A stretch of DNA of 64,000 bases from Mesostigma viride. Lineage: Eukaryota; Streptophyta; Mesostigmatophyceae; Mesostigmatales; Mesostigmataceae. The stretch covers positions 26,597-90,596 of the forward strand of contig RPFO01000004.1 in the NCBI GenBank assembly GCA_009746045.1, written 5' to 3'. Of this stretch, positions 6,507 to 36,414 are shown piece by piece (the stretch's first letter is position 1; each line of letters opens with the position of its first letter). Under the pieces are notes generated by a model. It saw only the letters and a list, made by a program, of their open reading frames with translations. It did no database searches and was not told the DNA's origin. A program made the translations under genes and the position numbers.

Positions 6507-7016
6507 CTATGGCCGCCCGTGTAAGGGGTCCATGAGCCCACGGAGCAGGGGGTACTGCCTCTCCGCCTTCTCCTCCAGCTTGGTGAGGGCATCTGCAGGG
6601 TTGTCCACACCAGGCACATGTTCAATGTGAGCTAGGTAGGACATCTCCTTGAGCAACAAGTAGTCAAGGTCCCTGCTCCTGGCCAGCTGCCTGTGCACAA
6701 ATTGCACCATGCCCATGCTATCAGTCCTCACCAGTGTGTGCAGCTGCAACCTACAGGAAGCCACTTGACATAGCTGGTAGAAGAGCTCCCTCAAGTAAAG
6801 AGCAGTATGCAGCCCTTCACAGATTGCCCTGCACTCAGCAATATCACTGCTGGGTGTAACCCTGTTCTGCAACCGACTGTACCAGGTAACAAGTGAGGTG
6901 TGATCTTGCTCCAGGGTAACTAATGCTGCTGCCCTGCCCCTGACCTCTGTGACCTTCCTATTATCCATAGAACTGTCCACATAGAGAACCATGTCAAGGG
7001 GCTTGTACAAATCCAC
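6507..7016 (-). pseudogene. Element D RNase H (copia type)
   Basis: Degrades RNA in the RNA-DNA hybrid during reverse transcription. It has the acidic VDSSMDNRKVTE opening, the WYSRLQNRVTPSSDIAECRA block (equivalent of the copia S-S-T-E-A-E-Y box) and a TDSMGMVQFVHRQLARS block, and it ends near NPADALTKLEEKAE, the copia NPAD-LTK signature. It overlaps the RT frame by about 100 nt in another frame, so a frameshift at about 7000 separates RT from RNase H here. Elements A and E keep RT and RNase H in one frame. Confidence 0.85.
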
Positions 7017-9589
7017 AGGACCCAGTATAGAGGGGGAGACATCATGACAGCCTGCACCACACTCTCAGCACCCACCTCAACCAGCTGGGAATCAGTAAGT
7101 CGACTCAAAACCAGCAAGTCAGGGGCACATATACTTGCAAGCCATGCCAGCATGCCCCTGATGGTAGCACACCTAGCCTGCGTGATGGGCTCCTGCAATG
7201 CATCTACAATCTGCTGTGGGTAGTCCTTACCACCCTCCATCCTGATGAACCACGAGCCCTTGGCTTGGAACAACGTAGCCTGCATGCCACAGAAGACCAT
7301 AGGCTCATTCTCCACCATGTGCTGTATCTTACCCAGCTCAAACCGCTTCTGGATCTTAGCCAAGACAGCCTCAACCCAGTCTGGTGGACCTATGAGATGC
7401 AGGTCATCACCATGCAGTGAGGCAAAGACAGGAAGGCCATTGTGGGACCCTTGGAACAAACAGGGATCCACTGGAGACACAGAAAACCCACAAGTATTCT
7501 TCAAGAATTTCTCTAGGCTCTTTCTCCAGATAATGGGACTGGACCTGAGACCTTCCAACCCTTTCAGAATTCTCAGGTACCTGGCCTTTATCTCTGCTCT
7601 CCATACAGCAGGTACAGTCACAAAGAAAGGAGGGATATCTCTCCAAGTCTGCCTAGCCTGATCTTGGTCACCCTTGAGAAAAGCCCTCTTGAAATCAATC
7701 AGCACAGAGCTATAGGGCACACCCTTAACCAGAAAAGACAGAAATATACACAGCAGAATCCTCCACGTGTCATGCAGCATCCCTGGAGTATAGAGCTCCT
7801 CATCTAACAACTGGCCAGTGCCATGATACTCGGTTACAACTGGTCTGACATGTGGCACCTGGACACCATCTACCTCCTTGAGCTTGAGGACAAACATCAA
7901 TCTGAGCAGCTGGTGAACTTCTGGCAGCTCATCCACAGGTTCTGCACAGTTGGAAACTATCCACTCATGCCCAGAAGCAACAAAGCCAAGAGTCCATGCC
8001 TTAGCCATCTTGGGGCTTTGCATCATCTCGACTAGCTGGCGCCAGGGAATAGGACTGTGAGCAGCTATCTGGTACCTGTTTACCCCTAACTGCCGTGGAT
8101 CAAAGGTGGTTGGGATTATCAACAGGTCCTCAGCTATGGGCTCCTGACCTTGAGGACCCTCAGCTGGCTGACTCCTAACAGCCTTCACCGCCACTGCAAG
8201 ACCCTGGGAATAGTGATATCTTTCAAGGGGGAGGCTGCCCCTGCCTTCTAGTGCCAACTCATCAGAGGTCAAAGTAACCCCTGGCATGCACAAGAAGTTC
8301 TGACCCAGAATGGCAGGCCCCTGATAGCCCTCTACCACACAGAACGTGGTGGGCACCCCTAAGATAGGCACACTCACTTCCCCAAGGATCTTCATGGACA
8401 CCTTTCCTGAGAAATCAGACACAGCAAGGCAACTGGGATGGGACATCTGTAAGCCTACAGCATCCTCTTCCCTGATGACAGACACCTGTGAGTTGGTATC
8501 TACCTCCATTGTAGCTGCCCAGCACGACCCCCACCCCGTGAGCTTGGATACCTTGGGATCATGTTTGCTGCGCATGAGTGCTCGGATGACGTCCGCCATG
8601 AGAGGCCCCCGGGCCTTAGGTGGCTGCCCCGTCCCCTCTGGCCTTGTGACAGTTGCTTCAGCAGCCTCCTCCTGCTCGTCATCTTCCAGCAGGGACAGAC
8701 CATCATCCACCACCAGAGGATTGTTAGCTGCTGCTGCCTGGCTCTGGCCTGGCTCCTCAACCCAGCTGGGAGGGCCTGGCCCGTCTGCAGGCCAGATTGC
8801 ATGTGGCCTTCTTTCCTTGACATGAGCCCAGGACAACCTGTACACGTGCCTTGGATCCTTTTCCAAAGCCACCAGGCAAGATCTGTTAGCTTCTTCCACA
8901 CGAGTGACAACCCCATCCTGCCACTTCCCCCGCTTGCCTGGAATAGATGGTTCCTTCCACATCCTGACCTTCAGCCCCACCTGAGGCCTCAGCACATTCC
9001 AGTTCTTGTCCTTACGTCTCAGCTGGGCAAATAACCTATCTGCCTTCCTAAGACTGGCCTGCACCACGTTCTCAGGCAACAAGCTATACTGCAGGGCCAG
9101 GGGAGAGACAGCCACACCATCAAAGTAATAGTTAACCCTGTGGTTCAGCTGCTCTTCTATCCCCTTACACCAGGCTGCCCTCTCTAAGGCAGATGCCACA
9201 AGTGGCACTGACTCTGCTGCTAGCACCACTGTCTTCACTTCACGTATGGATCTCTCTACAGCCCCTTGCTGCCCATGACTCTCCCTGGGGACTACTACCA
9301 GCTTACAAGGCAGCTGGTCCTGATGCTTGAGCAAACAGTCAAACTGCAAGTCTGCCTGCACACTCTTGCACACCCCAAAGCCTGGGATCAGGGCCTTCAT
9401 ACCCAACAACAAGTGGTGCTCCTGCATACCAGGCAGAACGTCTATCAGCCTGTATCTGCTGAACCTGTCCACCCCCCAATATATACAAGCCCCTGATATG
9501 CTGGATATCCATCTGGATGTCGCCACGCTCCCTAGCAGGCTCCCTAGCATGGGACTGAGGTGGGTGAACAGCATTCTCCTGGCAACCAC
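6920..9589 (-). pseudogene. Element D integrase core - protease - reverse transcriptase
   Basis: 889-codon frame. Domains in order: integrase core from about residue 35 (VDRFSRYRL..., VQADLQFDC with the second Asp, HGQQGAVERSIREVK with the catalytic Glu 31 residues later); an SH3-like basic C-terminal region (KVRMWKEPSIPGKRGKWQDG); a retropepsin-like domain at about 360-450 with VDTNSQVSVI (encoded at about 8489-8503, minus strand) and AILGQNFL; RT at about 550-800 with LIDFKRAFLKGDQ, GLRSSPIIWRKSLEKFL and the catalytic box SLHGDDLHL (HGDD at 7403-7414). The first residues are out of frame relative to the true integrase start, which continues from 9339-10028. The last 30 or so residues are out of frame after the shift into RNase H. 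Confidence 0.85.
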
Positions 9590-10028
9590 AGTTCTCAGCA
9601 GCAGCCTGGCAAGCCTCCCACAAAGGCTCCCTACCTAGCTTCCAAGCAAACATTGCTGCCTGCCCAGAATGCCCAAACATGTGATGCAACCTATGGCCAG
9701 CCTCAGCATAGCTCAGCACTCTGTCAGTACTGACCTGGCGAGACGTCTGAACCGTGTGTGGGGACACATGATCCACTCCTGAGGTTCCAGGGCTTCCCTG
9801 CAGGCCGTCCTGACGCCCCAAGTCAGGCCCTGCACCCTGGACCGCTCCAGGCCCTTCCAGCAAGGTCCCTTGGCCCTCCAGGCCAGCACCTGCTGGAGAC
9901 CCACCACCTGCATGAGGCATAGGGAATTCAGCTGCAGCATTGTTATTGCAATCCAGTGGAAGAACAACATCTTTACACCCTTGGTGCTGCACAAGGGGCA
10001 CACCCCCGTCCTTATGTACATCCAGCAC
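9339..10028 (-). pseudogene. Element D integrase N-terminal region
   Basis: Upstream integrase segment in a different frame. It contains HRLHHMFGHSGQAAMFAWK and CGCQENAV, an HX4H...CXC arrangement in the place of the HHCC zinc-binding domain, then RERGDIQMDIQHIRG with the first catalytic Asp. The useful part ends near 9475, where the register moves into the 6920-9589 frame (YWGVDRFSRYR). The equivalent region of element C is continuous, which shows that the break is secondary. Confidence 0.8.
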
Positions 10029-10050: not shown

Positions 10051-11733
10051 CTATTTACAGGGGATGATGTAGCTAGTCACTGCTGCCCAGACTGGCCCCT
10101 GCCCCAGCAGGCTTGGCCTTCCTGTCAGGACACTCACGACGCCAGTGACCTTCCTTGCCACACACAAAGCATGCTCCACCCTTCTTCCCAGACCCAGCCC
10201 CACCCTTGCCAGGCTTCCCCTGGCCTCCCTGAGGCTGCCCACCCTGCTTGCCCTGGTTGCCTTGAGCTTGGCCCTTGCCTTGCCCTTGGCCACCCTTACC
10301 CTGCTGACCACCAGCTTGCTGGCCCCAACCCCTCCTTGGGAACCTGCACCCTTGCCACCCTGAGCCCCCTGCCTCTGGCGCCTGAAGCGCTTACGCTTGT
10401 TGGGCCTTGCCCCATCACGGGCTGGGTACCCGGGGACATCACCTTGGCCCTGCACAGCGGAGGTGGCATTGCTGCCATGGGACTGGATAGCCTTGCAGGC
10501 AGGATCTGGCTTCCTTATGCTGAGGATTACAAGCTCCAGAGCACGCAAGGAGCCATCAGTCTGGTTAAGAAACATGCGGGCACCGTTCCTCCCATCCACA
10601 CTCAAACCCATACGGTCCAGGAAATAGTCTGCCAAGGCCCTATCTGTGACCAGGAAGCCATACTTGGCCCCCTTGTCCCTGATACGGTTGAGCCTAGCCC
10701 ATTCCTCTGCCACAGGGCCCACTATCTCAAAGGTGTCATACTGATGCTTATAGTAGTTGGTGAGGTTGAGAACCTTGTCAGAGAACTCCTCCCTCAACCC
10801 ATCCAGGAACTGTGCCCAGGTTAGCTTATCCTTGACAGCAGTCCTAGCCTTCTCCCTGACACGCTCTGACGAGTCCCTGTTGCACGTGGACGAGTGAAAC
10901 ACTTGCACTAGGTTGACAGTGGGGTCCACGGAGAACACAACAAGCTCCATGTCCTCTAGCCACTTGTCCAAAGCTTCCTGTGCTAGTGGTGGGTTAAGAG
11001 GCTTTTGTCCATTCATAACAGTGACAGCACTCATGTGAGGTCTCGACCCTGGCAGCGCCTTCACTGGCTCCACCACAGCGGGTGTCACAACAACAGCACC
11101 ACTTGGTCCAGCAGGCACAGGGGAGAGCACATCCACATGAGGCCTCTTACCATTGCCGTCAGCGGAGGGGTCCCTCTTACGCTTCTCCACGGCAGGTTGC
11201 CCATTCGCCACCGTTATTGCATCAGATGCCCAGCGCCCGCGCCTTGCGCGCCTCCTCCACCGAGTCTTCGTGTCGCCTCTTGCTCCCTGGTCGCTTTCCC
11301 CCATCGCCGTCGCTGGCTGGGATCGCCTCTCCCACCAGCGCTCCTTGCCCTTCCCAGGCTCCTGGCTCTCTCCAGCCGGTGCCTCCTCGCCCTTGTCGCC
11401 GTCGCCCGGTTTGCCACGAGGCATTATATACAAGTGGGGACACAACAATAAAGGCGAAGGAAAAGGAAGAACTGACTCAAGCACTGGTGTCGCTGGGGAT
11501 GCCGTGGGCACCGTCCCAGCTACTGACTCAGCACCTGCTTGGTTCGCTGCCTCCAGCTCTCGCTCTTGAGCAGTGGCTGCGATGGGCGTCTCTGGCCGCT
11601 CCTCGTCGCTGCCAGCGGCGTCCTCCCCGTCGGCGTAGGGTCCTAGCACTCTGCTAACGGGTCGCCCGTCTGCAGATTTCTCCACTGGGATCCGGGGCTC
11701 GCTCCCACTCGAGCGATCCCACTCAAGTTTCAC
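10051..11733 (-). pseudogene. Element D gag, main part
   Basis: 560-codon frame. Two-thirds in is the gag core NGQKPLNPPLAQEALDKWLE...FHSSTCNRDSSERVREKART...YFLDRMGLSVDGRNGARMF, closely matched by element C (32200-32700). It then becomes basic and Gly/Gln-rich. The zinc knuckle (CX2CX4HX4C) is present in the DNA near 10125-10166 but in another frame, so a frameshift lies in the low-complexity tail. The N-terminal 120 residues are a variable acidic linker. Confidence 0.85.
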
Positions 11734-12686: not shown

Positions 12687-13285
12687 AGTTAGAAAGAGCT
12701 CCCAACGTATGTGAGCTCTTGGTCTTTCACAGCACGGCTTAGCCAATGTTGCAAGGCAGCAACCTTAAATCTATGCACCAGGCCACGACCGCAGTGGGCA
12801 CTTCCACGACCAAGGTGGCACCCACGGCTCGTGCTTTCCGAGATAGCTGGTCATCCCCCATGACCAAGCTATATCCTTTGTGTTGTTCCTCGTTCCCATC
12901 GGCGTGACGAGGCACGTGCAGGCGTGCAAGCAAATCCACAACGTCCACTGGCATCAGTGCAGAGCCAGGACGCACTGGATTTGCCTAGACTCTGCAACCT
13001 AGGAAGTACAGGACCTGTCACAGGCCTGCAAGGTCTAGTATCCTTGCAGCCCTGTGCCAGTTCCAGTACCCCACCAGTCACAGGCTGCTGCTCCTCCTGG
13101 ACTACGTGGACCACAGTCACGTGATAGACAGGCTAAGCCTGTGCAGGGACGTCCTGCCACGTGTCCTGTCCGCTGTACCAGAGGACTGCACCCTAGTCGG
13201 CCACGGATGGCTAGGACTTCGGGACTTCATATCTTTCTTGTCCCTTGTCTGTTTCAGGCGGTCAGCACGGCGTTGGAAAGGTCTT
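12687..13285 (-). repeat. Element D 5' LTR, outer part (split by element E)
   Basis: Matches the D 3' LTR (4859-5500) from its AGTTAG end. It is interrupted at 13285/13286 by element E; the remaining 51 bp are at 19450-19500. Confidence 0.9.
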
Positions 13286-13630
13286 AGTTGAGTAACTCTA
13301 GAGCCCTAGGATCTGGCTCTAAGTTCCCCATGTCCGTCCGCACGCCTTCCGCTAGCGTCCGCTAAGCCGCCGGCTATAATCCGGCGGTCCGATGCGGTCG
13401 ACCGGTCTAAGGGCGGCGCCTAGGGCCGGCGCCACCTAGGCCCCAGTCCGGGGCCTTATCCGGGTCGGTACGGACAGCTAGTTTGTCCCACGGTTACGGC
13501 TAACCGGATAGGGTTTGCTGGCTAAGACATAAACCAGTGGTGGGCCAGCTCCGACAGCAGTTCTCTGTGTTCACCTTATCCCAAGCTCAACGTGACCGAC
13601 CGCCATAGCTGAGCCGGTCGGGCTTTAACT
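13286..13630 (+). repeat. Element E 5' LTR
   Basis: Begins AGTTGAG and ends TTTAACT (terminal AGTT/AACT inverted repeat). It contains two GC-rich stem-loops: CCGCCGG...CCGGCGG around a loop containing TATAAT (about 13369-13389), and GGCGCC...GGCGCC (about 13415-13433). These could be promoter or RNA-structure elements; no function is shown. Confidence 0.92.
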
Positions 13631-13649: not shown

Positions 13650-16436
13650 ATGGCTTCCGGTACACGGAGCCGCACGGGCGAACACACAGATACGCCAAGT
13701 GGCGAGGCCGCAGGGACCGTCCTGCCACGCTTTAGTGCGGACGAGGCCACGAGGTTGATGCAAACCCTCGTGGCGCAACCTGAACTGGCCAAGCAGTTCA
13801 AGCATCTGATGCTTGCTGCTGACGATGCACTGAATCGCGGCCCTCTCAAGCAAACGGAGGTGCCCGCGGATCTACCTGCCGACTATACGGCGGACGACGC
13901 AGCAGATTTTCTAGCTGCTCTCAAGCGTCTGCGCGATGGACGCGCAGACAAAGATTCGGAGCTGATTGGCAAGTTCCGTGCAGTATTCTGCAGTACAACA
14001 AAGCACCCAAACATTGCCAATCTAGTTCGCATTGCGGACGACAACAAACAAACCTGGGAAGTTTTTTACAACGGTCTAGATGCCCACTTGTCGCGGTCTA
14101 AGGAAGAGGCCGACGAGCAAGCCTTCAACGACTTCGAGGGCTATGCAGTTAATAAGGCAAATTTGCCCGGGGCTGCACGTGATTTCCAGGTCTTCGTGCA
14201 CAAGCACAAGCTGCTAGATACTCTCAAGCCCATTTTCCTGTGCAATCGATTTCTCAAGAAATGCGACCTGTCGTCGGATGTGCATCTGACCATAGCGACG
14301 GAACTCAAAAAGAAGAGTGCCGTCAGTTTCGACGAGGGCATGCTGTATTTGATCTCATGCTGCTTCAAGAGTGCGCAGTCCAAGCCGGCTGCCTCGGCTG
14401 CTCTGCCATCCCTGCGCAAGGTGGATGCCGGCGCGTCTTCTTCTTCAGGCGCAGAGGCTCCAATTACGCGGTCGGAGCTTACGGCCATCCTGAAAAAGGT
14501 CGTCGGCCACGGCAACAACGGGGGCCAGCGAGGGCGCAAGCGCGGGCATGGTGGCGACGCCAAGCAGGGTGATAATCCCCCGGCCAAGCGGCAGCAGGGG
14601 GCGTCTACTGACCGCAAGCAACGCTGTGAGCGCTGCTTCGGACGTCGCCATGTCCGGGATGACTGCCGAGTTCGCCCGGACCTGGAGCTCGAGGACAACC
14701 TTTGCCGCAAGTGCCACGACGTTCTGCGTGGTCACAGCGTGGAGGCGTGCAAGGCCAAGCGCATCGTCGTCCACGGCACACGCGAGGAGTGGGCAGAGCG
14801 ACGGGCAGCACGAAAGTCAGGTGAGAGCACGCTCGATACCCCTTCTTTTGCTCAATGCGTCACGCTGAACCGGGCCGTCGTAGAGCCTGACGTCGTTCCT
14901 AAAAGCAACGTGACTGCATCCTCTGTCTCATTCCGTGATGTGCTCACGCAATCCGTTGATGCTGCTCTGGCTCTGTCGCGCCAGGATCACGTGCTTCCTG
15001 AGCACGGGTCTACAATGCGTGACCTAAGCAATGTGGTGTCTTCTAGGTCGGGTGTGTACAACGCCGAGCGACCAAGCACTACTGCAGCACCCCAGCTAGA
15101 TACTGGGGCGGTTGGGCCTATGAGGAATGTTGTGACAGTGCAAGAGAATGCTGGGCGGGCAGATGTTCTCGGTACACACCACCCTAGTGTGGATCTTCAC
15201 ATTGGCAAGGTGCTCACACGGGCGGCCTTTCGTGCAGCCTCTGAAGCTGCCCAGTTAGCCAATGTCACTACCCCAGTAGTCACCCCACCTGTTGAGAATC
15301 CTGACAATGCCACTGCACCTCAGGCTGTCACCCTGAAACTGTTAGCATACCAGATGCACCGTGCATACGGGCATGAGGCCCAAGCCGAGGTAGAGGGGGC
15401 ACACATGTTGGGGGCACCTTTATACAACGAGCTGAAGAATGTGCGTGCTCAGTGTCCTGCCTGCATCAAGATCAGGAAGAAGTCGCGTAGGCGGCATGCC
15501 AAGACTCCACCCTTGGAGCGAGGGTACCTTGTGGGGGATGTCATGCACATGGAAGGGGGGGACACCTATTTCATAGTCAAGGATAGGTTCAGCAAGGCCA
15601 CCTACATTGAGCCGCTGCCTCACATGTTTGAGGCTGACCTGCACAGGGCTATCAAGATCAGCCTGGCTTTCTTTCATCCCGTAGTGGAGCTCATGCTAGA
15701 CCAGCAGTTCCGCTGTGTGCAAGGTTTGCCGGGGATGGAGGCCGTGGTCATCGTGGGGCGTGAGGATCACGGCAATATGGGCATGATAGATCGCACTGTA
15801 AGCTATGTCAAGACTGTGGCAGCCAAGCGACAGGATAACCCACATGGCAAATCCTACGCGGTCAAGACGGCGTGGTGCAAGGAGCTCATGCATGTGTGCA
15901 ACCATAGGCACGTGCTTGATGTCAAGGGCTTTGGGCTAGTCACGCCTCGGGGGCTGTCAGCGGGCACCTACTCACCCGAGGTAGTAGAGGCATACCAACA
16001 GCATCTACAGGATACCGCCGCCAAGCTGCGGCTCAAGGATGCCACGCTGCCTGATTTGTCTAGCGCTTTTGAGGTCGGGCAGTTGGTCATGTTCCACAAG
16101 GAGAGCTCGCCCAGCGGCAAACGGGGCACCATGCAGGGGCCTGGGGCCATCACAAAGTTAGACTGGCCGCTGCGGGTCATAGACATAGAGTGGAATGATC
16201 GGGTGTATAGGGTACCATGGGCATCGGTGGCAGGCTATAAGCAAGGGGATAGCATGGAGAGTGAGCTGGCAGCCAACAGGGCACTGGGGTGGGTAGTGAA
16301 GGATAATGCGCCTGTCGTAGCATCTGAGGTGGTACCCCACGGGTCGCTCCCAGGGGCAGACACAGCTACACCCCCCCCTCCCCTGGGCCCCAATATGACC
16401 CCGTGGATGGGTGGGATGAGGATGGGGTGGGTTTGA
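13650..16436 (+). CDS. Element E ORF1: gag - zinc knuckles - integrase
   Basis: 928 codons, ATG directly after the 19-nt leader. Residues 1-280 are the gag capsid-like region (helical, with RFLKKCDLSSDVHLTIATEL). Two CCHC-type knuckles follow at about 326-339 (CERCFGRRHVRDDC) and 352-368 (CRKCHDVLRGHSVEAC). The integrase N-terminal HX4H is at about 570 (HRAYGH) and CX2C (CPAC) at 602-605. Catalytic positions: D630 (GDVMHM), D684 (LDQQF) and D714 (GMIDRTV), where relatives A, C and D have Glu. D684-D714 spacing is 29 residues, against 35 in typical integrases. A basic SH3-like region follows (SSPSGKRGTMQGPG). There is no protease between gag and integrase. The last 109 nt overlap the pol frame, which lies in the -1 register. 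Confidence 0.9.
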   Translation: MASGTRSRTGEHTDTPSGEAAGTVLPRFSADEATRLMQTLVAQPELAKQFKHLMLAADDALNRGPLKQTEVPADLPADYTADDAADFLAALKRLRDGRADKDSELIGKFRAVFCSTTKHPNIANLVRIADDNKQTWEVFYNGLDAHLSRSKEEADEQAFNDFEGYAVNKANLPGAARDFQVFVHKHKLLDTLKPIFLCNRFLKKCDLSSDVHLTIATELKKKSAVSFDEGMLYLISCCFKSAQSKPAASAALPSLRKVDAGASSSSGAEAPITRSELTAILKKVVGHGNNGGQRGRKRGHGGDAKQGDNPPAKRQQGASTDRKQRCERCFGRRHVRDDCRVRPDLELEDNLCRKCHDVLRGHSVEACKAKRIVVHGTREEWAERRAARKSGESTLDTPSFAQCVTLNRAVVEPDVVPKSNVTASSVSFRDVLTQSVDAALALSRQDHVLPEHGSTMRDLSNVVSSRSGVYNAERPSTTAAPQLDTGAVGPMRNVVTVQENAGRADVLGTHHPSVDLHIGKVLTRAAFRAASEAAQLANVTTPVVTPPVENPDNATAPQAVTLKLLAYQMHRAYGHEAQAEVEGAHMLGAPLYNELKNVRAQCPACIKIRKKSRRRHAKTPPLERGYLVGDVMHMEGGDTYFIVKDRFSKATYIEPLPHMFEADLHRAIKISLAFFHPVVELMLDQQFRCVQGLPGMEAVVIVGREDHGNMGMIDRTVSYVKTVAAKRQDNPHGKSYAVKTAWCKELMHVCNHRHVLDVKGFGLVTPRGLSAGTYSPEVVEAYQQHLQDTAAKLRLKDATLPDLSSAFEVGQLVMFHKESSPSGKRGTMQGPGAITKLDWPLRVIDIEWNDRVYRVPWASVAGYKQGDSMESELAANRALGWVVKDNAPVVASEVVPHGSLPGADTATPPPPLGPNMTPWMGGMRMGWV
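16373..16379 (+). promoter_or_regulatory. Candidate -1 ribosomal frameshift site in element E
   Basis: C CCC CCT in the ORF1 register fits the X XXY YYZ slippery pattern. It lies inside the 16328-16436 overlap, where the ORF2 frame is open. A GC-rich segment follows. Seen: heptamer, overlap and -1 relation. Inferred: use as a gag-pol frameshift. Confidence 0.4.
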
Positions 16437-18721
16437 CGGGACCTAGTGCACGTAGTGACTCACCTCCTGTGCTAGCCACGGATAATGTGGGAGGCCCGCC
16501 TAGCGTGGCCTCGCCGGAGGGTCAGGGTCCTGCCCATGCGCCTCGCCCACCTAGGGACCTGGCTTCAACGGTCACGGCCTTGTGGCGTGCTCAGGCGCTT
16601 AAAGCGAAAGCTGCATCAGGGGTGGCTCAGGTCAAAACTCTCTCACAGGGGGTCAGGCCGGTTAAGTCAGCCTTGTTTCCTACGTGTAGACCGTGGCAGC
16701 TGGTGGCTGTGGACACGCAAGCATCCGTGTCTATTATCTCTCGTCGGGCAGCCACCCTGTATCCAGTGCTAGAGTCGCCGTACAAATCGGTGACCGACTT
16801 TGCAGGCACTTCGGCATATCAAGTTACCGGGATGGTGGTGCTGCCGGTGTTGGGCATTGACACGCCGTTTCACGTCGTGGATGGCTACGAGGATGTGGCC
16901 TTGCTGGGCGAACCTTTCGTATCATACCCGGGGTTCTCAGTGTCCGCTGACTTGCTGTCAGTCGCGGGGGTGGGCAGCATCCCGCTTCGCGAGTACCACG
17001 CTCCATTGGGGGTGGTGGTCGGGCAGCCCGGCGTCGTGCGGCGCTTACCGATGGCGGCGTTTTCCACACCGCCGCTCGTCCAGTCCATCATTCAGCCTCA
17101 GGATTGGCACCCGCGCAGCTTCGGCCTCCACTCACACTCACTGGCGGCGGATAGCCCTGTGACGTGGGAGCAACTTGTCCTGGACTGTCAAGATCCTCTC
17201 AAGTTTGCTTTGTGGCGCGACGCGTTCATTCGAGCCAAGGAGCAGTGGCGAGAGCGCGAGGTCTACCGAGGATTGGAGAGTGTGCCAGCCGGGGCCACGC
17301 GGTTGCGGTTGAAGTTCGTGCTCACCTACAAGCCGGACGAGACCAACTCTTCGGTGGTGTTCCGGGTAAGGCCCGTGGTCACGGAGACGAAGGGGTCCTC
17401 CCCGCTGGACGCCAAGGATCTTTATACCCCTGGGCTCAACCATGTTTCGCATCGGCTACTGACGGTCATCTACTTGGGCAAGCGGAACGCGGGCAAGGAC
17501 TACGGGATGTGGTGCGGTGACTTTCAGCGGGCATTCCTCCACAGCGACGCTGGGGTCGCGCAGCAAACATGGCAAGGCACCCGCTACGTGGTGAAGGTCC
17601 CGGTGGTCTGGCAGGATGGCACCATTGGCAGCGAGTATATCGAGCTGTTGACAGGGGTGGAGGGGCTGCAGAGCTCTCCCATCATCTTCCGCATTTCCGC
17701 GGAGGAGGTCTTGCAGAGCTTAGGGGCCACGTACCATCGCGCGGATCCTAACTTCTTTGTGGTCCCCACCGGCGTCCCTGGCGAGCCAGCCCTCTTCGTG
17801 TGGCATGGCGATGACTTCAAGCTGGTGGCACCTCGCACCTTTGCTACCCAGTTTCTTGCTGCAGTGGCGGCTAAGTTTCCCCTGGGCAGGGCGGTGGATC
17901 ATGAGGAGGGTAAACCCGTGGTGTTTTGCGGCGTGCAGTCTACGTTGCAGCGGGATTCGCGTTCTGGCGAATGGGTCATGCACATGCAGGATAGCCGCAA
18001 CTATGTGGTTGACCTGCTGGCCGACCTCCCGTCCCCGCTGTTGGCAACCCATGGGCCCTCGGTTAAGGGCAAGCTCGGGTGGTTGGCGGACACGGTGGCA
18101 CCTGATTTGGCGGTGCTCGCTCGCCTGCCCGATGATGTGCTGGAAGGACTAGGGTCCATTCATGTTCGGCGGCAGCTGGCCATGACGCCCGGCATTGTGC
18201 TTCGTGGGCTCGATTGCTCACAGCCGGTGCACCTCGAGATAGTGACGGATGCTAATCTAGAGACGCGCACAGTCAGCCAAGTGCGGGCCCGCATGGGGGC
18301 ACTGTTCTTTATTAGCAATGAGGGACAGCCTGGCATGTTGTTAGATTGGTACTCGCGCTTGCACAGCCGCATTGCCACTAGCCCCAACACGGCTGAATGC
18401 CGGGGCATTGTTTCAGCTATCTCACATGGCATGTGGCTGCGGTACTTGCTGGGTTGGGTATTTGGCTCGTGTGGGTTCACTCTTCACTGGACTAGCACGG
18501 TGCACACTGACTCACAAAGTTGTTTGGCCTTCCTTGACAATCCCTATGCGCGGTCACAGGACGTTGATTACCTCGTACTCGCTGAGGCGGCCTCCTGCGT
18601 CACGCGTCTCCAGCACATCGCGGATGAACTCAATCCCGCGGATGCACTCACCAAGGAGGCGCGGGAGGCTGCCCCGCAGTACGCAGTGTTGCGCAAGCGC
18701 ATGACGATGCAACACCCGTGA
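16403..18721 (+). CDS. Element E ORF2: protease - reverse transcriptase - RNase H
   Basis: The frame is open from 16328; the 16403 start is GTG and is probably not used, so expression by -1 frameshift from ORF1 is more likely. Counting from 16403: retropepsin-like domain at about 98-190 with VAVDTQASVSIIS (DTQA at 16712-16723, Gln in place of the usual Gly) and ALLGEPF; copia RT at about 285-520 with DFQRAFLHS (Asp about 373), GLQSSPIIFRISAEEVL and VWHGDDFKL (HGDD at 17804-17815, about 468); RNase H at about 610-760 with TDANLETR, WYSRLHSRIATSPNTAECRG, TDSQSCLAFLDNPYARSQD and NPADALTKEA. No frame damage. The family is recognisably Ty1/copia by RT and RNase H, but divergent. Confidence 0.92.
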   Translation: MDGWDEDGVGLTGPSARSDSPPVLATDNVGGPPSVASPEGQGPAHAPRPPRDLASTVTALWRAQALKAKAASGVAQVKTLSQGVRPVKSALFPTCRPWQLVAVDTQASVSIISRRAATLYPVLESPYKSVTDFAGTSAYQVTGMVVLPVLGIDTPFHVVDGYEDVALLGEPFVSYPGFSVSADLLSVAGVGSIPLREYHAPLGVVVGQPGVVRRLPMAAFSTPPLVQSIIQPQDWHPRSFGLHSHSLAADSPVTWEQLVLDCQDPLKFALWRDAFIRAKEQWREREVYRGLESVPAGATRLRLKFVLTYKPDETNSSVVFRVRPVVTETKGSSPLDAKDLYTPGLNHVSHRLLTVIYLGKRNAGKDYGMWCGDFQRAFLHSDAGVAQQTWQGTRYVVKVPVVWQDGTIGSEYIELLTGVEGLQSSPIIFRISAEEVLQSLGATYHRADPNFFVVPTGVPGEPALFVWHGDDFKLVAPRTFATQFLAAVAAKFPLGRAVDHEEGKPVVFCGVQSTLQRDSRSGEWVMHMQDSRNYVVDLLADLPSPLLATHGPSVKGKLGWLADTVAPDLAVLARLPDDVLEGLGSIHVRRQLAMTPGIVLRGLDCSQPVHLEIVTDANLETRTVSQVRARMGALFFISNEGQPGMLLDWYSRLHSRIATSPNTAECRGIVSAISHGMWLRYLLGWVFGSCGFTLHWTSTVHTDSQSCLAFLDNPYARSQDVDYLVLAEAASCVTRLQHIADELNPADALTKEAREAAPQYAVLRKRMTMQHP

Positions 18722-19099: not shown

Positions 19100-19444
19100 A
19101 GTTGAGTAACTCTAGAGCCCTAGGATCTGGCTCTAAGTTCCCCATGTCCGTCCGCACGCCTTCCGCTAGCGTCCGCTAAGCCGCCGGCTATAATCCGGCG
19201 GTCCGATGCGGGCGACCGGTCTAAGGGCGGCGCCTAGGGCCGGCGCCACCTAGGCCCCAGTCCGGGGCCTTATCCGGGTCGGTACGGACAGCTAGTTTGT
19301 CCCACGGTTACGGCTAACCGGATAGGGTTTGCTGGCTAAGACATAAACCAGTGGTGGGCCAGCTCCGACAGCAGTTCTCTGTGTTCACCTTATCCCAAGC
19401 TCAACGTGACCGACCGCCATAGCTGAGCCGGTCGGGCTTTAACT
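19100..19444 (+). repeat. Element E 3' LTR
   Basis: 345 bp, same length and termini as the 5' LTR with one difference seen. It is followed by the target duplication GTCTT (19445-19449). Confidence 0.92.
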
Positions 19445-19449
19445 GTCTT

Positions 19450-19505: not shown

Positions 19506-20200
19506 AACAGGCCCGCTTTGATAAGATCATCGATTCCTCCAAGACGTTTGAGGAGCGAACACCTGCTTATCCCCCGGCCCGCGCTGTGCTCCATCGCATT
19601 CATCTCAAACCAGGTGTGGCACCCACACTCACCAATGTATAGAATGGGCCCAAGCGAGCTCAAGGAGCTCAAGCAAATCCTCATTTCCCTGCTAGACTCT
19701 GGTCTTATAGAACCCAGTAATAGTCCCTTCTCCGCAGGTGTCCTTCTGGTCCCCAAGCCCAACGGCAAGTGGCGACTAGTTACGGACTACCGAAAGCTGA
19801 ATGATATTACCATCAAGTCAAAATACCCCCTTCCTAGGATAGATGACATTTTCAACAAAGTCCAAGGTGCAACGTGCTTTACTGTCCTAGATTGTGCAGA
19901 TGGCTTTTGGCAGTTGCGTATCGCTCCCAAAGATTGCGCAAAAACGGCCTTCGCCACCCCATTCGGCCACTATCAATTCAGAGTAGCAGCCATGGGTCTC
20001 TGTAATTCTCCTGCCAGCTTTCAGATGTTGATGAATGAAGTCATGCGTCCTGTCATGGGCACGTCTTTACTGCCCCAAGTACCTCAGGACCTCAAAGACC
20101 CAGATCCAACTGCTGCTCCTGTCCCCATTGCACCTCACAAACGGGCAATGCGCTGTACCATATATGGACGACATCCTCATTTATTCTCGAACCTTTGATG
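19506..20200 (+). pseudogene. Element G reverse transcriptase (Ty3/gypsy)
   Basis: Copies the element RNA into DNA. After a short N-terminal stretch in one frame (to about 19650), the RT fingers and palm are open in the next: RMGPSELKELKQILISLLDS, GVLLVPKPNGKWRLVTDYRK, YPLPRIDDIFNKVQGATCFT, LDCADGFWQLRIAPKD and GLCNSPASFQMLMNEVM. The catalytic YMDDILIYSRTF is encoded at about 20162-20197 but in a different frame, so a frameshift lies between about 20060 and 20160. An extra segment of roughly 35 Pro-rich residues sits between the FQMLMNEVM box and YMDD, longer than usual for gypsy RT. Confidence 0.88.
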
Positions 20201-20946
20201 ATGATTCATTGTGAGGATGTACAAGCTGTTCTCGACATTATGGAAGCCAACCATTTGTGGGCCCGCCGAGCCAAGGTTCGTGCTGGCCAAAGTGTACCAT
20301 TTCTCGGCCACATCCTGTCCGATAAGGGTGTCGCTACAGATCCTGAGAAAATCGCATCTGTACAAGAATGGCCTGTCCCAACGGACGTCAAGAGCATTCG
20401 TAGCTTCCTAGGAATGGCATCCTACTATAGGCGATTTATCCCCCGCTTTGCAACCATTGCCGCTCCCATTAATCACCTCTTGAAGAAGGACGTGCCCTTT
20501 GATTGGACGCCGGAGTGCCAGCAAGCCTTTGACCTTCTCAAGTCCCGTCTGACCACAGCCCCGGTGCTGATCTTGCCTGACCCCAGCAAACATTTTGTGG
20601 TGGCGTGCGATGCCAGCAAGGTGGCCATCGGCGGTGTGCTACTCCAGGACCATGGAAACGGCCTACAACCGATAGAGTACATCACACGCACTATGATTCC
20701 TGCAGAGCGCAACTACCCCATACATCAACAAGAGCTCTTGGCTCTCGTTTACTGCTGCCATACGTGGAAACACCATCTGCTGGGCGCGCAATTTGATGTG
20801 GCCTTGAGTGAAACCAATGAGGCAGACCCGTATCGCCTGATAATTCATACGGACCACTGCCCTTTAACACACGTGCTGACACAACCCAATCTGGTGCCCC
20901 ACATGGCCCGTTGGCTGGAATTTCTAGCCCAGTTTGCCCCTTTTAA
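20195..20946 (+). pseudogene. Element G RT connection and RNase H (interrupted)
   Basis: Starts just after the YMDD box. It contains FLGHILSDKGVATDPEKIAS and SIRSFLGMASYYRRFIPRFA (gypsy thumb/connection), then RNase H with FVVACDASKVAIGGVLLQ, HQQELLALVYCCHTWKHHLLG and IHTDHCPLTHV. It ends at ARWLEFLAQFAPF, where piggyBac-like element P is inserted at TTAA. The next residues (IQYVKGAENIVPDALSRR) are found after P. Confidence 0.9.
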
Positions 20947-22289: not shown

Positions 22290-22293
22290 TTAA

Positions 22294-22690
22294 AATCCAA
22301 TATGTAAAGGGGGCTGAAAACATTGTCCCAGACGCGCTGTCCCGGCGCTCTGACTATTTCTTTTACTCTGACATGGACGTGCTGAATACCACGGTGGTCC
22401 CCTCTCCTATCCCAATTGTACCATCCTATGGTGCTACCCCGGACACCGAGGAATATCATGACTTATTTCATGTCCCCATGGCCCTGCCCGACTTGCAGTC
22501 CTACTGTCCTCTTGCGCCTGAGGGCAGGTCTATACCTCCGGTAGGGGGGGAGGGATCTGACCCAGAGATTCAAAAACTTTTGCGCGTCCCTCTGTGTCAT
22601 GTGGCCAAACAGGTTTATAAACCTTTAGAACCTGTGGGGGAGCCCCTATTGTTCGGTAAGGCTGCGGCTGACGTTTTCAAGCCAAATTAA
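22294..22690 (+). pseudogene. Element G RNase H end and linker to integrase
   Basis: Resumes after P with IQYVKGAENIVPDALSRRSD, the conserved gypsy (P)GxxNxxADALSRR box closing RNase H. An acidic, poorly conserved linker follows and ends at a stop at 22690. Integrase restarts in a new frame at 22709. Confidence 0.85.
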
Positions 22691-22708
22691 GCCGACACCG
22701 ACGTCGCC

Positions 22709-25388: not shown

Positions 25389-27906
25389 CTAGGCGTCCCC
25401 CCGATGGAGCAGGGTTGCCTGCTTGCCATACGGGTTCATCAGGTGGTACAACAGCTGATATTGATCAGCTGCCTGCTGAGGCACCTTGGTGAGTGCATCA
25501 GCAGCGTTGTGCTTGTCCTCCACGTGACGGGTGGACTCCCAGTAGGTGCACTCCTGTTTAAGGACCACCCAGTCAAGATCAGTGTGCACAGCATAAGGGT
25601 TAGCAAGGAAGCTGAGGACTGACTGACTGTCAGTGAGCAAGTGTGCCACCACCCCAGCACTGCTGCCTGCTTGCATCTGCAACCAAAACAGCACGTGATT
25701 CAAGTACCTGGCATGAAGCACTGCTGACACCACTGCCCTGCACTCAGCAGCATTGCTGCTGACAGCCTTGCGTCTGTGCAACCGGCTGTACCATGAAATG
25801 AGAGACAAGGGTGCATCATCATTCTGCACAAAATACAAGCCTGACTCCCTTGCTTGCAACTTGGTAATCTGCCTGGACTCCATGGAACTATCCATCATAG
25901 CTTGGATGTGAATGGTTTTGTGGAGATCCAAGGAATGCAAGATAAGGGGAGGGCCTTCCTGGAGAGTTTTGGTGATGGCTTTGTGACCTACTTGCATCAA
26001 GACATCATCATCAACTCTGCTAACCACAGCCAGGTGAGGTGCACAAGTTGAGCACAACCACCCCAGCTTGCCTCTAATGGTGGGACAGGCACCAGGTTTG
26101 ATTTTTGTTTGCAGAACCTCCAAGCAGCTGTGCATGTAATCATTGGGAGAGTAAAGTGCACACACCCACTGGTTTTTATGCTGCTGGAGTTGTAACATTG
26201 TGCCACAAAATTTTATGGCAGTGGTGCCCAGCTCTACTTGCTTGCCAATCTCAAAATGCTGTGACACTTGTTGAATAAACTCATCTACAGCACGCCTTGG
26301 CCCAGCAATCAGCTGATCATCCCCATGCCACACAAAGGTGATTATGCCATGAGGGTGTGGGACCACAAAGAAGCAAGGGTCTATGTCATCATATCTAGCC
26401 CCTAGCTTTTCAAACACAGCCTGAGCTGACATCCTGAAAATGCGAGGAGCTGATTGCAGCCCTTCAACACCTATGTTAGCTTTCAGGTACTGCTGAGGGA
26501 TGTGTTTTGCCCAGACTCTGGGAGTGGAGACTACATACACCTGACCATGCCACACTTGTTGTGCTATCTCAGGTGAGCCCTTCAAGAAAGCCCGTTTAAT
26601 GTCTGTAGCCTTACAAACATAGTCATCCCCGTCATTGAGATGACCCACAAAGACAGGCAGCAATATTTTTAGAGAGGTTTGCTGAATGCCTGGCGTGTAC
26701 AACTCTGCCTCTGTCAGATCAGTGGTGCCCTTGAACTCTGTCACACAAGGTCTAGCATGGAAAATGACTGACCCATCTGCTGCTGGCTTATGTTTGCACA
26801 CAAACTTCAGGCGCAAGTGCTTACACCCTGCAGGCTTTTTGTCAATAGGTGTGACAGGTGGAGTGTGAGAGGGGCTTAGAGGATCTGGCACTACCCATTC
26901 TTCCCTGGCCTTGTTGAAGGCCTCCACCCATTTTAGGAAACCTATGTGTGTGCGACAATCTTGCTCTATCTGTTCATAAGAAAGAGGAGACATTTTAGCC
27001 ACATCATGCTTGCCCAATCCAAAGGAGGTGGGATGAAGTTTTTGGTTATGAACCAAGTCTGCCACACAAGGTTCTTGCCCTGGGGCATACTTGGGGGTAG
27101 CAAATTTTACAGAAGCAATGTTGGTGTGAAGAAGTTTTTGAAGAGAGATTTTGAAATGATTCAGATCAACACCACCCAGGTCCTGGATGGCTAGTCTATT
27201 GCTGGAGATAATGACACCAGGGTAAGAGAGAAAAGGATCACCCAACAAGGCATTGCCTTTATAAACTTCCAATACCTGAAAAGGAGTTGGGATACCAAGT
27301 AAAGTCAACATGACCTGACCTTGTACCTTGAGAGATGACTGCCCTGAGAAATCAGCCACATGTTGCCATGGTGAAGGTTCCAAAGGCAAATGGGGCACAG
27401 CCAGGGCACTGATAATGCTGACCTGGGCTTGTGTGTCCACTGCAACCATAAATGGGCTATTGTCATTCTGCCCAACCTTCCCCACCTTAGCTGATCCTGC
27501 AGCAGTTTGAGCTTTAGTAGCTCTATGAGCTGATTGTAAAATGCGAACAGCTTCTGCTAGGCTGCGTTTGGAAGGTGCAGCTAGTGGCTGAGCTATGTTC
27601 ACAAGTGAAGAGGTGATAGGTTGCTGATCACCTGTTTTGCCAGTTTGACCCTCTGCTGCAGGGGGCCAAGCCTGCAATGACTGCCTGCAATCATCAAGGG
27701 TGACCTGGGTGTCACAGTGGGTGTGGCTCTCACACTCACCAGTGGGTGTTCCAAACAACCACTCACTGGGCAACGCTGGGATGCCAGGCAACTGTACAGG
27801 GCTGTCGGCCAACAGCTCTTCCTCCTCTGCCACGTCTGACACAGTTGGAAAATACAATTTCATCCTGTAAGGTGAACACCTGTGAATCTTACCCGTGTCA
27901 TTGTGT

Positions 27907-27917
<11 letters not shown>
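25389..27917 (-). CDS. Element A protease - reverse transcriptase - RNase H
   Basis: 842 codons, one open frame on the minus strand. The first 40 residues are the end of the integrase C-terminal region (LVKHNDTGKIHRCSPYRMKL), reached by a one-base shift from the upstream frame. The retropepsin-like domain has VAVDTQAQVSIIS (DTQA at 27426-27437, about residue 161) and ALLGDPFLSYPG. RT has ATDIKRAFLKGSPE, GVEGLQSAPRIFRMSAQAVF and VWHGDDQLIAG (HGDD at 26316-26327, about residue 531). RNase H has DSSMESRQITKLQ, WYSRLHRRKAVSSNAAECRA, LLTDSQSVLSFLANPYAVH and NAADALTKVPQQ. All catalytic acidic positions expected for RT and RNase H are present. The start is a frame opening, not a true initiator. Confidence 0.88.
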
Positions 27918-30228
<2,311 letters not shown>

Positions 30229-30233
30229 GCCCC

Positions 30234-30608
30234 AGTTAGCATACTGGGTCACCAATGTGCTAGATGGATGCAGGTTGAGGAGACCTTTCCAACGCCGTGT
30301 CAACCGCCTAGAACAGACAAGGGACTAGAAAGTTATCAAGTCCCGAAGTACTGCCGACCGGTGGGCGAGGGCGGGACACACTCAGGGCATAGTGGACAGG
30401 ACACGTGGCAGGCCGTGCCTGCACAGGCTTAGCCTGTACTCTCACGTGACTGGGACACAGTGTACTGAGGGCTCAACGGTACTGTGGCTAGTAGAAGCCA
30501 GTAACCAGCCAGCAGGTCTGCAAGGATGTAAGTCCTTGCAGGACTGTGGCAGGTCCTGTGCTGTCCTAGACACAGGATAGCCAGAGATTCCTGTATGCTG
30601 CCTGCAAC
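30234..30608 (+). repeat. Element C 5' LTR, truncated
   Basis: Matches the first 370 bp of the 3' LTR (from 37703), then similarity stops abruptly after GCCTGCAACAA; the last 280 bp of the LTR are missing. The sequence after the break resembles the short gag leader of D (ACTATTGCTTCC against CTATTATTGTCTCC), so the deletion removed the 3' part of the LTR up to the leader. Confidence 0.8.
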
Positions 30609-32102: not shown

Positions 32103-33176
32103 ATGTGTGCCTCCGTCTGGTGTTCCTGCAGCTATGTTCCTGCGCCATTAGCACCAGTAGGAGCTGCTGTCATTGGCAGTGACCCTCGTGCTTTGCCTGG
32201 GACTAGACCTCATATGAGTGCTGTGGCTGTGATGAATGGCCAGAAGCCTCTCAAGCCTCCTGTGGGACAGGAAGAGCTAGACAAGTGGTTGGAGGATATG
32301 GAGCTAGTTTCATGCTCTGTAGATCCCACTGTCAACCTTGTGCAGGTATTCCACACATCCACGACTAATAGGGATTCAAGTGAGCGTGTGAGGGACAAGG
32401 CTAGGCAAGCTGTCAAGGACAAGCTGACTTGGTCTCAGTTCCTAGAGGGCCTACGTCAGGAGTTTTCTGATAAGGTACTCAACCTCACTAATCACTATAA
32501 GCTCAGCTATGATACCTTTGAGATCAAGGGCACAATAGCTGAGGAGCTGCAGCGGCTCACACGCATCAGGGAGAAGGGGGCCAAGCATGGCTTCAATCTG
32601 ACTGATAGAGCAGTGGCAGATTACTTCCTGGATCGCATGGGGCTGAGTGTGGATGGGAGAAATGCAGCTAGGATGTTTGCTGATCAGACAGATGGGACGT
32701 GGCCAGCCTTGCAAAAGGTTATTTTCAATATCCGTCCATCTGACAATGCTGCTTGCAAGGCAATCCAGGTGACTGGTGCCCCTTCAGCCTCCGCTCATCA
32801 GGTCCATGGTGACGCCCCTGGGCAGGGTGCTCAGGGAGAAACCAGACCTAGTAGGCGTCAGAGGGCTAACAGGCGCAGGCAGAATGGTAACCAGGGTGGC
32901 AAGGGCCAGCAGCAGGGATCCAAAGGCAAGGGTCAGCAGCAGGCTGGTGGTCACCAGGGTGGTCAGCAGAACAAGGGTGGCCAAGGGCAAGGCAAGAGCC
33001 AGGGCCAGGGCACCCAGGCCAGTCAGAGCAGCCAGAACCAGGGTGGCCTGAAGAAGGCTGCTGCTGGGAAGGATGACAAATGCTTTGGATGTGGCAGGAC
33101 GGGTCATTGGCGACGTGACTGCCCAGACCAGGCCAAGTCTGCTGGAGCAGGCTCTGGCCAGGTGGGTAAGCCATGA
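32103..33176 (+). pseudogene. Element C gag core and zinc knuckle
   Basis: Contains MNGQKPLKPPVGQEELDKWL, FHTSTTNRDSSERVRDKARQ, TWSQFLEGLRQEFSDKVLNL and YFLDRMGLSVDGRNAARMF, then a Gln/Gly/Lys-rich basic segment and a clean CX2CX4HX4C knuckle (CFGCGRTGHWRRDC) near the end. The true start is upstream through the Gly/Arg linker. It ends at TGA 3174-3176 of the 33-kb segment (33174-33176), followed after a few nt by the integrase frame. Confidence 0.85.
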
Positions 33177-33182
33177 CTTGAG

Positions 33183-35375
33183 ATGTTGTCCCCTGTAAAT
33201 AGTCAATCACCCCTAGTGGGACGAACAGTTGTACATAGTAATGGGGGTGTCCCTCTTGTGCAGCAGCAAGGGGTTGGGAATGATGAGGTGCTTCCACTCA
33301 ATGATTGCAATAACGCTGCTGCAGCAGTGGAATTCCCTGTGCCTGTGGCAGGTGCAGGGTCTCCAGTTGTTGGGGTTGACTCTGGGAGTCAAGCCGCCAG
33401 ACTGGAAGGACCTGCAGCTTCTGTGGGAACCGGGGCTGGCTCTGGGAGCCGAGCTACCTTGGAGGAGGTCCCTGGAGCAAGAGAACAGCAGGTGGGTCGT
33501 GCTATCCCAAGCACACAGTCTTTGTCACGTTCCTCTCTGTGCAGCCAGGCTGACAGGGGGTTGAGCTATGCTCAGGCTGGAAACACTCTACACCATATCT
33601 TTGGCCACTCTAAGCAGGCAGAGATGTTTGCTTGGAAGATTGGCAAGGAGCCTTTGCTAGAGGCCTGCAGTGCAGCTGCTCAGAATTGTGTCTGTCAGGA
33701 GAATGCTGTTCGCCTCCCACAGTCCCATGCCAGAGAACCTGCTAGAGAGCGGGGGGATATCCAGGTGGACATCCAACACATCAGGGGCATGTATCTGTTG
33801 GTGGGGGTGGATAGGTTTAGCAGATATAGGTTGCTGACCATTCTTCCTGGAATGCAGGAGCATCAGCTGTTGATGGGTCTCCAGTCTTTGTTGCCAGGCT
33901 TTGGGGTGTACACCAAGGTGCAAGCTGACTTGCAGTTTGACTGCTTGATCAAGCTGGCTGACCAGCTTCCTTGTAAGTTGGTAGTGGTCCCTAGGGAATG
34001 CCATGGGCAGCAGGGAGCTGTAGAGAGATCTATACGTGAAGTAAAAACAGTGGTGCTAGCAGCTAGGAGTGTGCCTGTTGTGGCATCAGCTCTAGAGAAA
34101 GCAGCTTGGTGTAAGGGGATTGAGGAGCAGCTTAACCACAGGGTAACCTATTACTATGATGGTGTGGCAGTCTCTCCCCTGGCATTGCAGTTTGGTATGC
34201 TATCACAGGACGTGGTGGCAGCCTGCCTGAAGAAGGCAGACAGGGTGTTTTCCAGATTGAGGCGTAAGGACAAGGGTTGGAAAATGCTGAGGCCCCAGGT
34301 GGGACTGAGGGTCAGGATGTGGAAGGAACCGTCATTACCAGGCAAGCGTGGCAAGTGGCAAGATGGGCAGGTAACCCATGTTGAGGAAGCTAACCATTCT
34401 TGTCTGGTGGCTTTGGAGAGTAATCCCAAGCACGTGTACAGGCTATCCTGGGCTCACGTCAAGGAGAGAAGGCCAACTGCAATCTGGCCTGAAGACGGCC
34501 CTGATCCTCCCTTGGAGGGAGATGAGCAGGATGAGAGCCAGGCAGCAGATGCTAACCCACCATGCTTGGATTATGGTCTGTCCTGGATGGATGAGGGTGA
34601 GCAGGAGTCTGCTGAGACGTCTGTCACAAGGCCAGAGGTGGCCAGGGCTGCACCACAGTCCAGGGGGCTGCTTATGGCGGACATCATTCGAGCTCTGCAG
34701 AACAGCAAGCGTGATCCCAAGGTATCTAAGCTCACGGGATGGGGGTCATGTGGGGCACCAGCACTAGAAGTGGATACCAACTCACAGGTGTCCATTCTAA
34801 GGGTAGAGGATGCTGCAGGCTTGCAGTGGTCATCCCCTAGCTGCCTAGCTGTGTCTGATTTCTCTGGGAATGTGTCCATGAAGATCTTGGGAGAAGTGAG
34901 TGTGCCTATCCTGGGGGTGCCCACCACGTTCAGTGTGGTTGAAGGGTATCAGGGGCCTGCCATTCTAGGTCAGAACTTCTTGTGCTTACCAGGGGTGAGG
35001 ATATCCTCTGAGGAGCTAGCATTAGAAGGGCAGGGCCGCCTTCCCTTGCAGAGATATCGCTACTCCCAGGGTCTTAGTGTGGCTGTAAGGGCTGTGAGGG
35101 GTCTAGAGGCAGAGGGTCCTGATACAAAGGAGCCCATTGCTGGGGACCTGCTGATCCTCCCTACTACGTTTGACCCACGTGAGTTGGGTGTGCAGAGGTA
35201 CCAGATCCCAGGAACGAGTCCTGTACCTTGGCGCAAGCTAGTGGAGATGATGCAAAGCCCCAAGATGGCTAAGGCATGGACTCTTGGCTTTGTTGCTTCT
35301 GGGCATGAGTGGATAGTTGCCAACTGTGCAGAGCCTGTGGATGTCCTCCCTGAGGATCACCAGCTGCTCAGTTGA
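33183..35375 (+). pseudogene. Element C integrase - protease - RT start
   Basis: 730 codons. Integrase: LHHIFGHSKQAEMFAWK with CVCQEN (HHCC-like); RERGDIQVDIQHIRG (first Asp); VQADLQFDCLIK (second Asp); HGQQGAVERSIREVKTVV (Glu, D-X31-E); and RMWKEPSLPGKRGKWQDG. The protease follows with LEVDTNSQVSILR (DTNS at 34773-34784, about residue 531) and AILGQNFLCLPG, then the RT N-terminus (SPKMAKAWTLGFVASGHEWI). It ends by a frameshift at about 35372, where MFVLKLKEVDGV continues. Confidence 0.87.
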
Positions 35376-36414
35376 TGTTTGTCCTCAAGCTCAAGGAGGT
35401 AGATGGCGTGCAGGTGCCACATGTTAGACCAGTTGTGACTGAGTACCATGGCACTGGACAGTTAGCAGATGAGGAGCTTTACACACCAGGGATGCTGCAT
35501 GATACATGGAGGATTTTGTTGTGCATTTATTGTCTTTTCTGCAGAAGGGGATACCCTATAGCTCTGTGTTGGTAGATTTCAAGAGGGCTTTTCTTAAGGG
35601 TGATCAGCAGGAAGCACAGGATACTTGGCGCACAATACCCCCTTTCTTTGTTAAGGTGCCTGCAGTGTGGAGGGCAGAGCTGAAGACGAGGTATTTGAGG
35701 ATTCTCAAAGGCGTGGAAGGCCTTAGATCGAGTCCCATCATCTGGAGGAAGAGCTTGGAGAAGTACCTCAGGTCTGTCTGTGGTCTCTCAGTCTCTCCAG
35801 TTGATCCTTGTCTGTTTCAGGGTAGCTATGAGGGGCTGCCAGCGTTTGCCTCCCTGCATGGTGATGATCTGCATCTCCTGGGCCATCCCACTTGGCAAGA
35901 GTTGACTCTGGCCAGGATCCAGAAACGGTTTGAACTGGGTAAGATCCAGTACATGGTTGAGAATGAGCCCATGGTGTTTTGTGGAATGCAGGCGACCTTG
36001 GTCCATCAGCAGGGTACATGGTCCATCCAGCTGGAGGGTGGTAAGGATTATCCTCAGCAGATCATAGATGCCTTGCAGGAGCCCATCACCCAGGCCAGAT
36101 GTGCAACAATACGAGGTATGTTGGCATGGCTGGCCAGCATTTGTGCTCCTGACCTGTTGGTACTGAGTCGGTTGACCGATTCCCAACTGGTTGAGGTGGG
36201 TGCTGAGAGAGTGGTAGAGGCTGTTCGCATGTCTCCCCCTCTCATGCTGGGTCCTTTGGATTTGTACAGGCCTTTTGACATGATGCTCTATGTGGACAGT
36301 TCTATGGATAGTAGGAAGGTCACAGAGGTCAGGGGCCGTGCAGCAGCATTAATATCCCTGGTGCAGGAACAGTCCTCTCTGGTCTGCTGGTACAGTCGGT
36401 TGCAAACAGGGTAA
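35372..36414 (+). pseudogene. Element C reverse transcriptase palm
   Basis: Two overlapping frames carry the rest of RT: 35372-35575 (KLKEVDGVQVPHVRPVVTEY, EELYTPGMLHDTWRILL) and about 35506-36414 (VLVDFKRAFLKGDQ, GVEGLRSSPIIWRKSLEKYL, SLHGDDLHLLG with HGDD at 35857-35868, ending in RNase H residues VDSSMDSRKVTEVRG). A frameshift lies at about 35510-35540, another near 36410. Confidence 0.87.

Follow-up and report, generated by a model that had tools for sequence, protein, structure and literature searches.

Long terminal repeat (LTR) retrotransposons are sorted by the order of their domains. For plant copia elements, the accessible text of one survey gives this order as GAG-PROT-INT-RT-RH after elements of unexpected order had been discarded, every such element in 80 species having been dropped as a likely misprediction (PMC6317226). 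For a selection of copia elements from two diatoms, the available part of the study gives the pol order as protease (PR), integrase (IN), reverse transcriptase (RT) and RNase H (RH) (PMC2806351). A recognised departure is the Gmr1 group of Ty3/gypsy, for which the available text reports a Ty1/Copia-like position of the integrase (PMC2774666). Here we describe four elements (E, A, C and D) of three families in which the order is gag-IN-PR-RT-RH. They lie in a window of 64,000 nucleotides, the whole stretch of DNA that was analysed, on contig RPFO01000004.1 of the freshwater green alga Mesostigma viride; all positions are those of the window. We know of no earlier description of this order. A search of open PMC text, with subscription literature outside its scope, found no paper with written orders such as int-pr-rt or int-prot-rt, and the accessible text of a paper on dinoflagellate and charophyte retrotransposons contains nothing on an IN-PR order (PMC5890265).

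Domain order and superfamily membership

E is a whole element. Its LTRs are 345 bp each with a single mismatch (99.7%), they are bordered on both sides by a 5-bp GTCTT duplication, and their sequence is AGTTGAGT...TTTAACT (table 1). Motifs, together with alignment to A, C and D, served to assign the domains of E. In ORF1 (open reading frame 1), a CCHC knuckle (C326, C329, H334 and C339; 14625-14666) is followed by an integrase with an HHCC motif (H570, H575, C602 and C605) and an acidic triad, D630 (15537), D684 (15699) and D714 (15789). In ORF2, the catalytic Asp of the retropepsin domain (16712-16714) is followed 65 residues later by the Gly of LLG (16907-16909), then by the RT motif HGDD (17804-17815) and by RNase H (VTDAN at 18242, ADALTK near the end). 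A preliminary description of this stretch had placed the three integrase aspartates and DTQA at 16712 correctly, and its proposal of a copia-like lineage with this order is supported by the order in A, C, D and E and by the RVT_2 matches given below.

C and D represent one family (75-91% complementary across ungapped stretches). IN and PR share one open frame in C, and in D from within IN, so the order in these two elements is independent of any joining of frames; the frame of D is damaged upstream of the ORF at 6920-9589. The acidic triad of the integrase ends with Asp in E and with Glu in A, C and D. Among Mesostigma gene models, P0002, which is 46% identical to E and has PR-RT-RH, represents a fourth family, and P0005 carries a short IN tail followed by PR. 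The preliminary description took the sharing of the order to rule out a single rearrangement, which inverts the argument: an order common to three families excludes a one-copy accident and fits one inherited, ancestral rearrangement.

The RVT_2 model matched A above the cut-off (2.5e-9) and D and C below it (1.1e-4 and 0.05). E and P0002 alone gave no RVT_2 match; however, E ORF2 is 39% identical to that of A. RVT_1 matched none of E, A, C and D; the window's own gypsy RT gives 1.5e-20 with this model. Pfam rve matches were weak and below the cut-off (A, 0.0075; C, 0.012). When the integrase profile was searched against PDB, the top three of four matches were integrases (E-values 0.12-0.52), and in an hhalign comparison with the gypsy integrase of the window the profile was collinear across the stretch that holds CxxC and the first Asp (E-value 0.01, at a probability of only 4%). 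None of the seven matches that the RT profile found by sequence in PDB was named RT. The RT catalytic motif was HGDD in all six sequences (E, A, C, D, P0002 and P0004, a fragment described below); copia RTs usually have YxDD.

The RVT_1-type RT of Ty3/gypsy, including Gmr1, is not found here. As in Ty1/copia, the RT is of RVT_2 type, integrase lies upstream of RT-RNase H in 4/4 elements, and the target duplication (GTCTT flanking E) is 5 bp. On the other hand, PR follows IN in 4/4 with none found before it, and E lacks the TG...CA LTR ends expected of Ty1/copia. The RVT_2 matches, on which copia-like status rests, support this assignment. Because the superfamily order was tested and does not hold, we call the elements copia-type, of variant order, and not plain Ty1/copia members.

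A putative retropepsin after the integrase and its alternatives

Profile searches in six frames (859 segments of at least 40 aa; 80,379 aa) detected four PR domains, all of them after IN. The domain is predicted to have a retropepsin fold. Its catalytic motif is DTQA, DTNS or DTMA: in the five PR sequences Asp and the next Thr are invariant and are followed by Gln (two sequences), Asn (two) or Met (one), then by Ala or Ser. A second motif, hydrophobic-hydrophobic-Gly, is kept in all five (LLG, LLG, ILG, ILG and LIG), at a PR identity to E of only 34-48%. The Gly of the retropepsin signature D-[ST]-G is thus replaced in 5/5 members. This Gly is near-invariant and usually considered indispensable, and we know of no other retropepsin with a D-T-[QNM] active site. 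The preliminary description had called DTQA retropepsin-like and overlooked the replaced Gly.

Selection was compared between C and D (dN/dS by NG86, with 95% bootstrap intervals in brackets). PR gave 0.18 (0.10-0.31) and IN from GVDRFSR onward 0.17 (0.10-0.24); RT and gag both gave 0.07, the stretch after PR 0.21 (0.12-0.40) and the IN-PR linker 0.46 (0.26-0.83), the lower end of whose interval is overlapped by that of PR. By this measure PR evolves as an enzyme of the element does.

We consider it probable that these are copia-type elements with a relocated retropepsin between IN and RT, which arose in one ancestral event and works as an aspartic protease. Such an event would have moved or captured PR downstream of IN, with loss of the gag-proximal PR. 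The relocated PR would be a homodimeric aspartic protease with one catalytic Asp per subunit, able to work with Gln, Asn or Met in place of the Gly of other retropepsins. Gag would assemble, readthrough or a frame change would give the longer product, and PR would dimerise inside the particle and cleave the gag-IN-PR-RT-RH precursor. The families may then have diverged in gag/pol expression: C and D have an in-frame UGA after gag, E changes frame between IN and PR, and A does so where IN ends. A bolder version, tentative and rather doubtful, is that a deep copia-type lineage exchanged its gag-proximal PR for a Ddi1/gypsy-like retropepsin between IN and RT, that D-T-[QNM] cleaves, and that some families make IN in Gag-like amounts. 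According to the available text of PMC6952103, Ty1 PR is closer to Ddi1 than to HIV-1 PR in some features; the match to Ddi1 is therefore, by itself, no proof of a non-copia origin.

Several results weigh against a relocated and working protease. Catalysis is not assured with the Gly replaced; the fold prediction (AlphaFold2) used an input alignment of five sequences and had a mean pLDDT (predicted local distance difference test) of 54; and a PDB profile search by sequence with PR gave two matches, neither of them a protease (E-values 0.53 and 1.3). For PR and IN alike, every sequence match in Pfam and PDB fell short of the threshold, rve had no match in E or D, and neither E ORF matched any Pfam family. 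Moreover, the full order was not found in a second species (other algal genomes were outside the scope), mutation rather than programming may explain the frame changes of E and A, and the spacers between gag and IN contain bare D[ST]G[AS] tetrapeptides more often than chance readily gives (2.0% and 2.2% by shuffling for E and C).

These tetrapeptides, LDTGA in E (Asp at 15099) and VDSGS in C (Asp at 33378), are two of only three in 39,621 aa (six-frame segments of at least 100 aa), the third being within A's integrase, and they would suit a very divergent copia protease still lying between gag and IN, with the post-integrase domain as an extra copy. We give this little credence: by eye, neither is followed about 65 residues on by hydrophobic-hydrophobic-Gly, the part of D that is aligned with VDSGS does not match it, and the spacer of A, 74 aa as cut, is shorter than the PR domains here and has no such motif. 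Pfam protease models had no match to the spacers of E, A and C at E-values up to 10, with filters that remove most weak matches, and comparison of each of the three spacers with the PR profile by hhalign gave probabilities of 0.1-0.2%, without a positive control. A protease at the canonical position was rejected on the Pfam, hhalign and hidden Markov model (HMM) results, the length of the A spacer and the lack of conservation between C and D. The statement that no retropepsin motif lies between gag and integrase thus holds for domains and fails for the bare tetrapeptides of E and C, which may be chance occurrences or remnants of an ancestral PR. Less credible still is an order produced by chimeric assembly or nested insertion. 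Nested elements do fill the window, E interrupts an LTR of D, and A, which has no LTR pair that could be found, ends beside C; but four separate places, on both strands, each carry an element with this order, E is complete with near-identical LTRs and matching duplications, IN and PR share one frame in C and D, and the gene models P0002 (PR-RT) and P0005 (IN tail-PR) agree, so that this is largely refuted already.

The more serious, if unlikely, alternative is that the post-integrase domain is a pseudoprotease, retaining fold and dimerisation for a structural or assembly role with its catalysis dead, and that a host protease cuts the precursor or little processing occurs. It would account for the substitution of Gly by Gln, Asn or Met in every member, given the retroviral protease consensus D-S/T-G-A (PMC6952103, in its available text). 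Yet Asp and Thr are invariant at such low overall identity, the dN/dS of PR resembles that of IN, and the elements yielded no other protease. An active protease of a modified type is favoured over a pseudoprotease.

Gag/pol expression, host and genomic setting

In C, the gag frame meets TGA at 33174-33176 (TGACTT), and in D the aligned site reads TGACTA (10077-10079, minus) and shares the frame of the downstream ORF at 9339-10028; gag is damaged in D and the frame upstream of its TGA is uncertain. The ATG that follows the TGA of C is missing in D, which favours readthrough over restart. This TGA between gag and IN is a possible leaky stop. The frame changes between IN and PR in E and at the end of IN in A, and IN would therefore be made with Gag in both. 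The overlap in E contains two X XXY YYZ heptamers in the right phase (16373 and 16385), possible -1 slippery sites; the change may be a programmed frameshift or a plain indel in a C-rich stretch.

Table 1. Positions of the features of E, A, C and D in the window
Feature	Position	Strand	Remarks
E 5' LTR	13286..13630	+	345 bp, AGTT...AACT termini; target duplication GTCTT at 13281-13285
E 3' LTR	19100..19444	+	target duplication GTCTT at 19445-19449
E ORF1	13650..16436	+	gag with CCHC knuckle, then integrase; no Pfam match
E integrase (end approximate)	15354..16270	+	HHCC, three Asp, basic C-terminal domain with GK.G...GPG
E ORF1/ORF2 overlap	16328..16436	+	open, C-rich, between IN and PR; ORF2 in -1 frame
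E ORF2	16403..18721	+	PR-RT-RNase H
E retropepsin domain	16676..17029	+	VDTQAS from 16709, then LLG
E RT and RNase H	17240..18700	+	by motif and by alignment with A
A ORF1	27907..30303	-	gag remnant with long Asn run, CCHC (C400), integrase D583, D636, E666
A ORF2	25389..27917	-	IN end, PR, RT, RNase H; RVT_2 2.5e-9
A retropepsin domain	27129..27470	-	VDTQAQ ... LLG
C gag	32103..33176	+	CCHC (zf-CCHC 2e-5); ends at in-frame TGA, position common to D
C IN and PR, single open frame	33183..35375	+	integrase D196, D249, E281
C retropepsin domain	34743..35083	+	VDTNSQ ... ILG
C RT and RNase H start	35506..36414	+	
D IN (part of core, C-terminal domain), PR and RT, single open frame	6920..9589	-	
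D retropepsin domain	8190..8530	-	VDTNSQ ... ILG

The bases after the E LTRs were inspected for a primer binding site and no primer was identified. The gag-side ORF of A contains an Asn run of more than 300 residues, interrupted by a few Asp (29120-30240, minus).

Comparison of window proteins with EukProt models (jgi/Mesvir1) identified the host as Mesostigma viride, a streptophyte alga, which replaces the chlorophyte framing of the preliminary description. P0001 is 100% identical (rounded) to E ORF2 across 81% of the ORF, P0003 100% (rounded) to an ORF of C across 70%, and P0005 95% to A across 40%. LTR retroelements are the largest repeat portion of the Mesostigma genome (27.9%, in the available text of PMC6947507); in the accessible parts of two Mesostigma genome papers, repeat content and methods are given and domain order was not found. 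Nested elements are abundant in the window, E itself lying within the right LTR of D. Other features include a broken Ty3/gypsy element at 19518-23437 (RVT_1, RNase H and Integrase_H2C2); a probable non-LTR element at 41573-46739, with an RVT_1 protein encoded at 44529-46739 (6.6e-11) and upstream ORFs showing PHD- and RING-like cysteine patterns by eye; and a 457-bp repeat (23858-24314 and 49082-49538, 99% identical), perhaps the LTRs of another family.

Relatives and comparison with known systems

Relatives in protein databases, with 8000 candidates sharing most words scored per search, comprised five proteins: four Mesostigma models and one RT fragment, P0004, filed under the dinoflagellate Prorocentrum lima. 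The fragment is 62% identical to A across 287 positions, which may reflect a lineage in common, horizontal transfer or contamination. No relatives were found among phages. In viral contigs E ORF2 had no pattern match, and the RT and PR profiles had 89 and 181 pattern matches, none confirmed; the 166 pattern matches in prokaryote genome contigs were likewise not confirmed. Records near the window's own genome were possibly left out of these phage, viral and prokaryote searches. PHROGs (four proteins) and NCBIfam (six proteins) gave no match.

The order gag-IN-PR-RT-RH departs from the gene order used to define the whole copia superfamily, and where domain order is used for sorting, lineages such as these would be filtered out. 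If our interpretation is right, a protease can be relocated inside copia pol while remaining under selection, and natural retropepsins without the active-site Gly would be on offer. The effect of a PR downstream of IN on integrase dosage and precursor processing becomes testable.

These elements resemble Ty1/copia (Pseudoviridae) in their RVT_2-type RT, integrase upstream of RT, RNase H in last place, CCHC gag and 5-bp target duplication, and differ from it in having PR after IN, a modified PR motif, HGDD in RT and AGTT...AACT LTR ends. Like the Gmr1 group of Ty3/gypsy, they have a pol order that departs from that of their own superfamily; unlike these gypsy-type elements, in which PR remains first in pol, they have an RVT_2-type RT and it is PR itself that is displaced. 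Unlike the retropepsin domain of Ddi1 and the retroviral proteases, they carry D-T-[QNM]-[AS] rather than D-[ST]-G-A, and the domain lies within a retrotransposon pol. They share with the CoDi elements of diatoms the condition of algal copia-type elements, but in the selected elements of two diatoms PR precedes IN, whereas here it follows.
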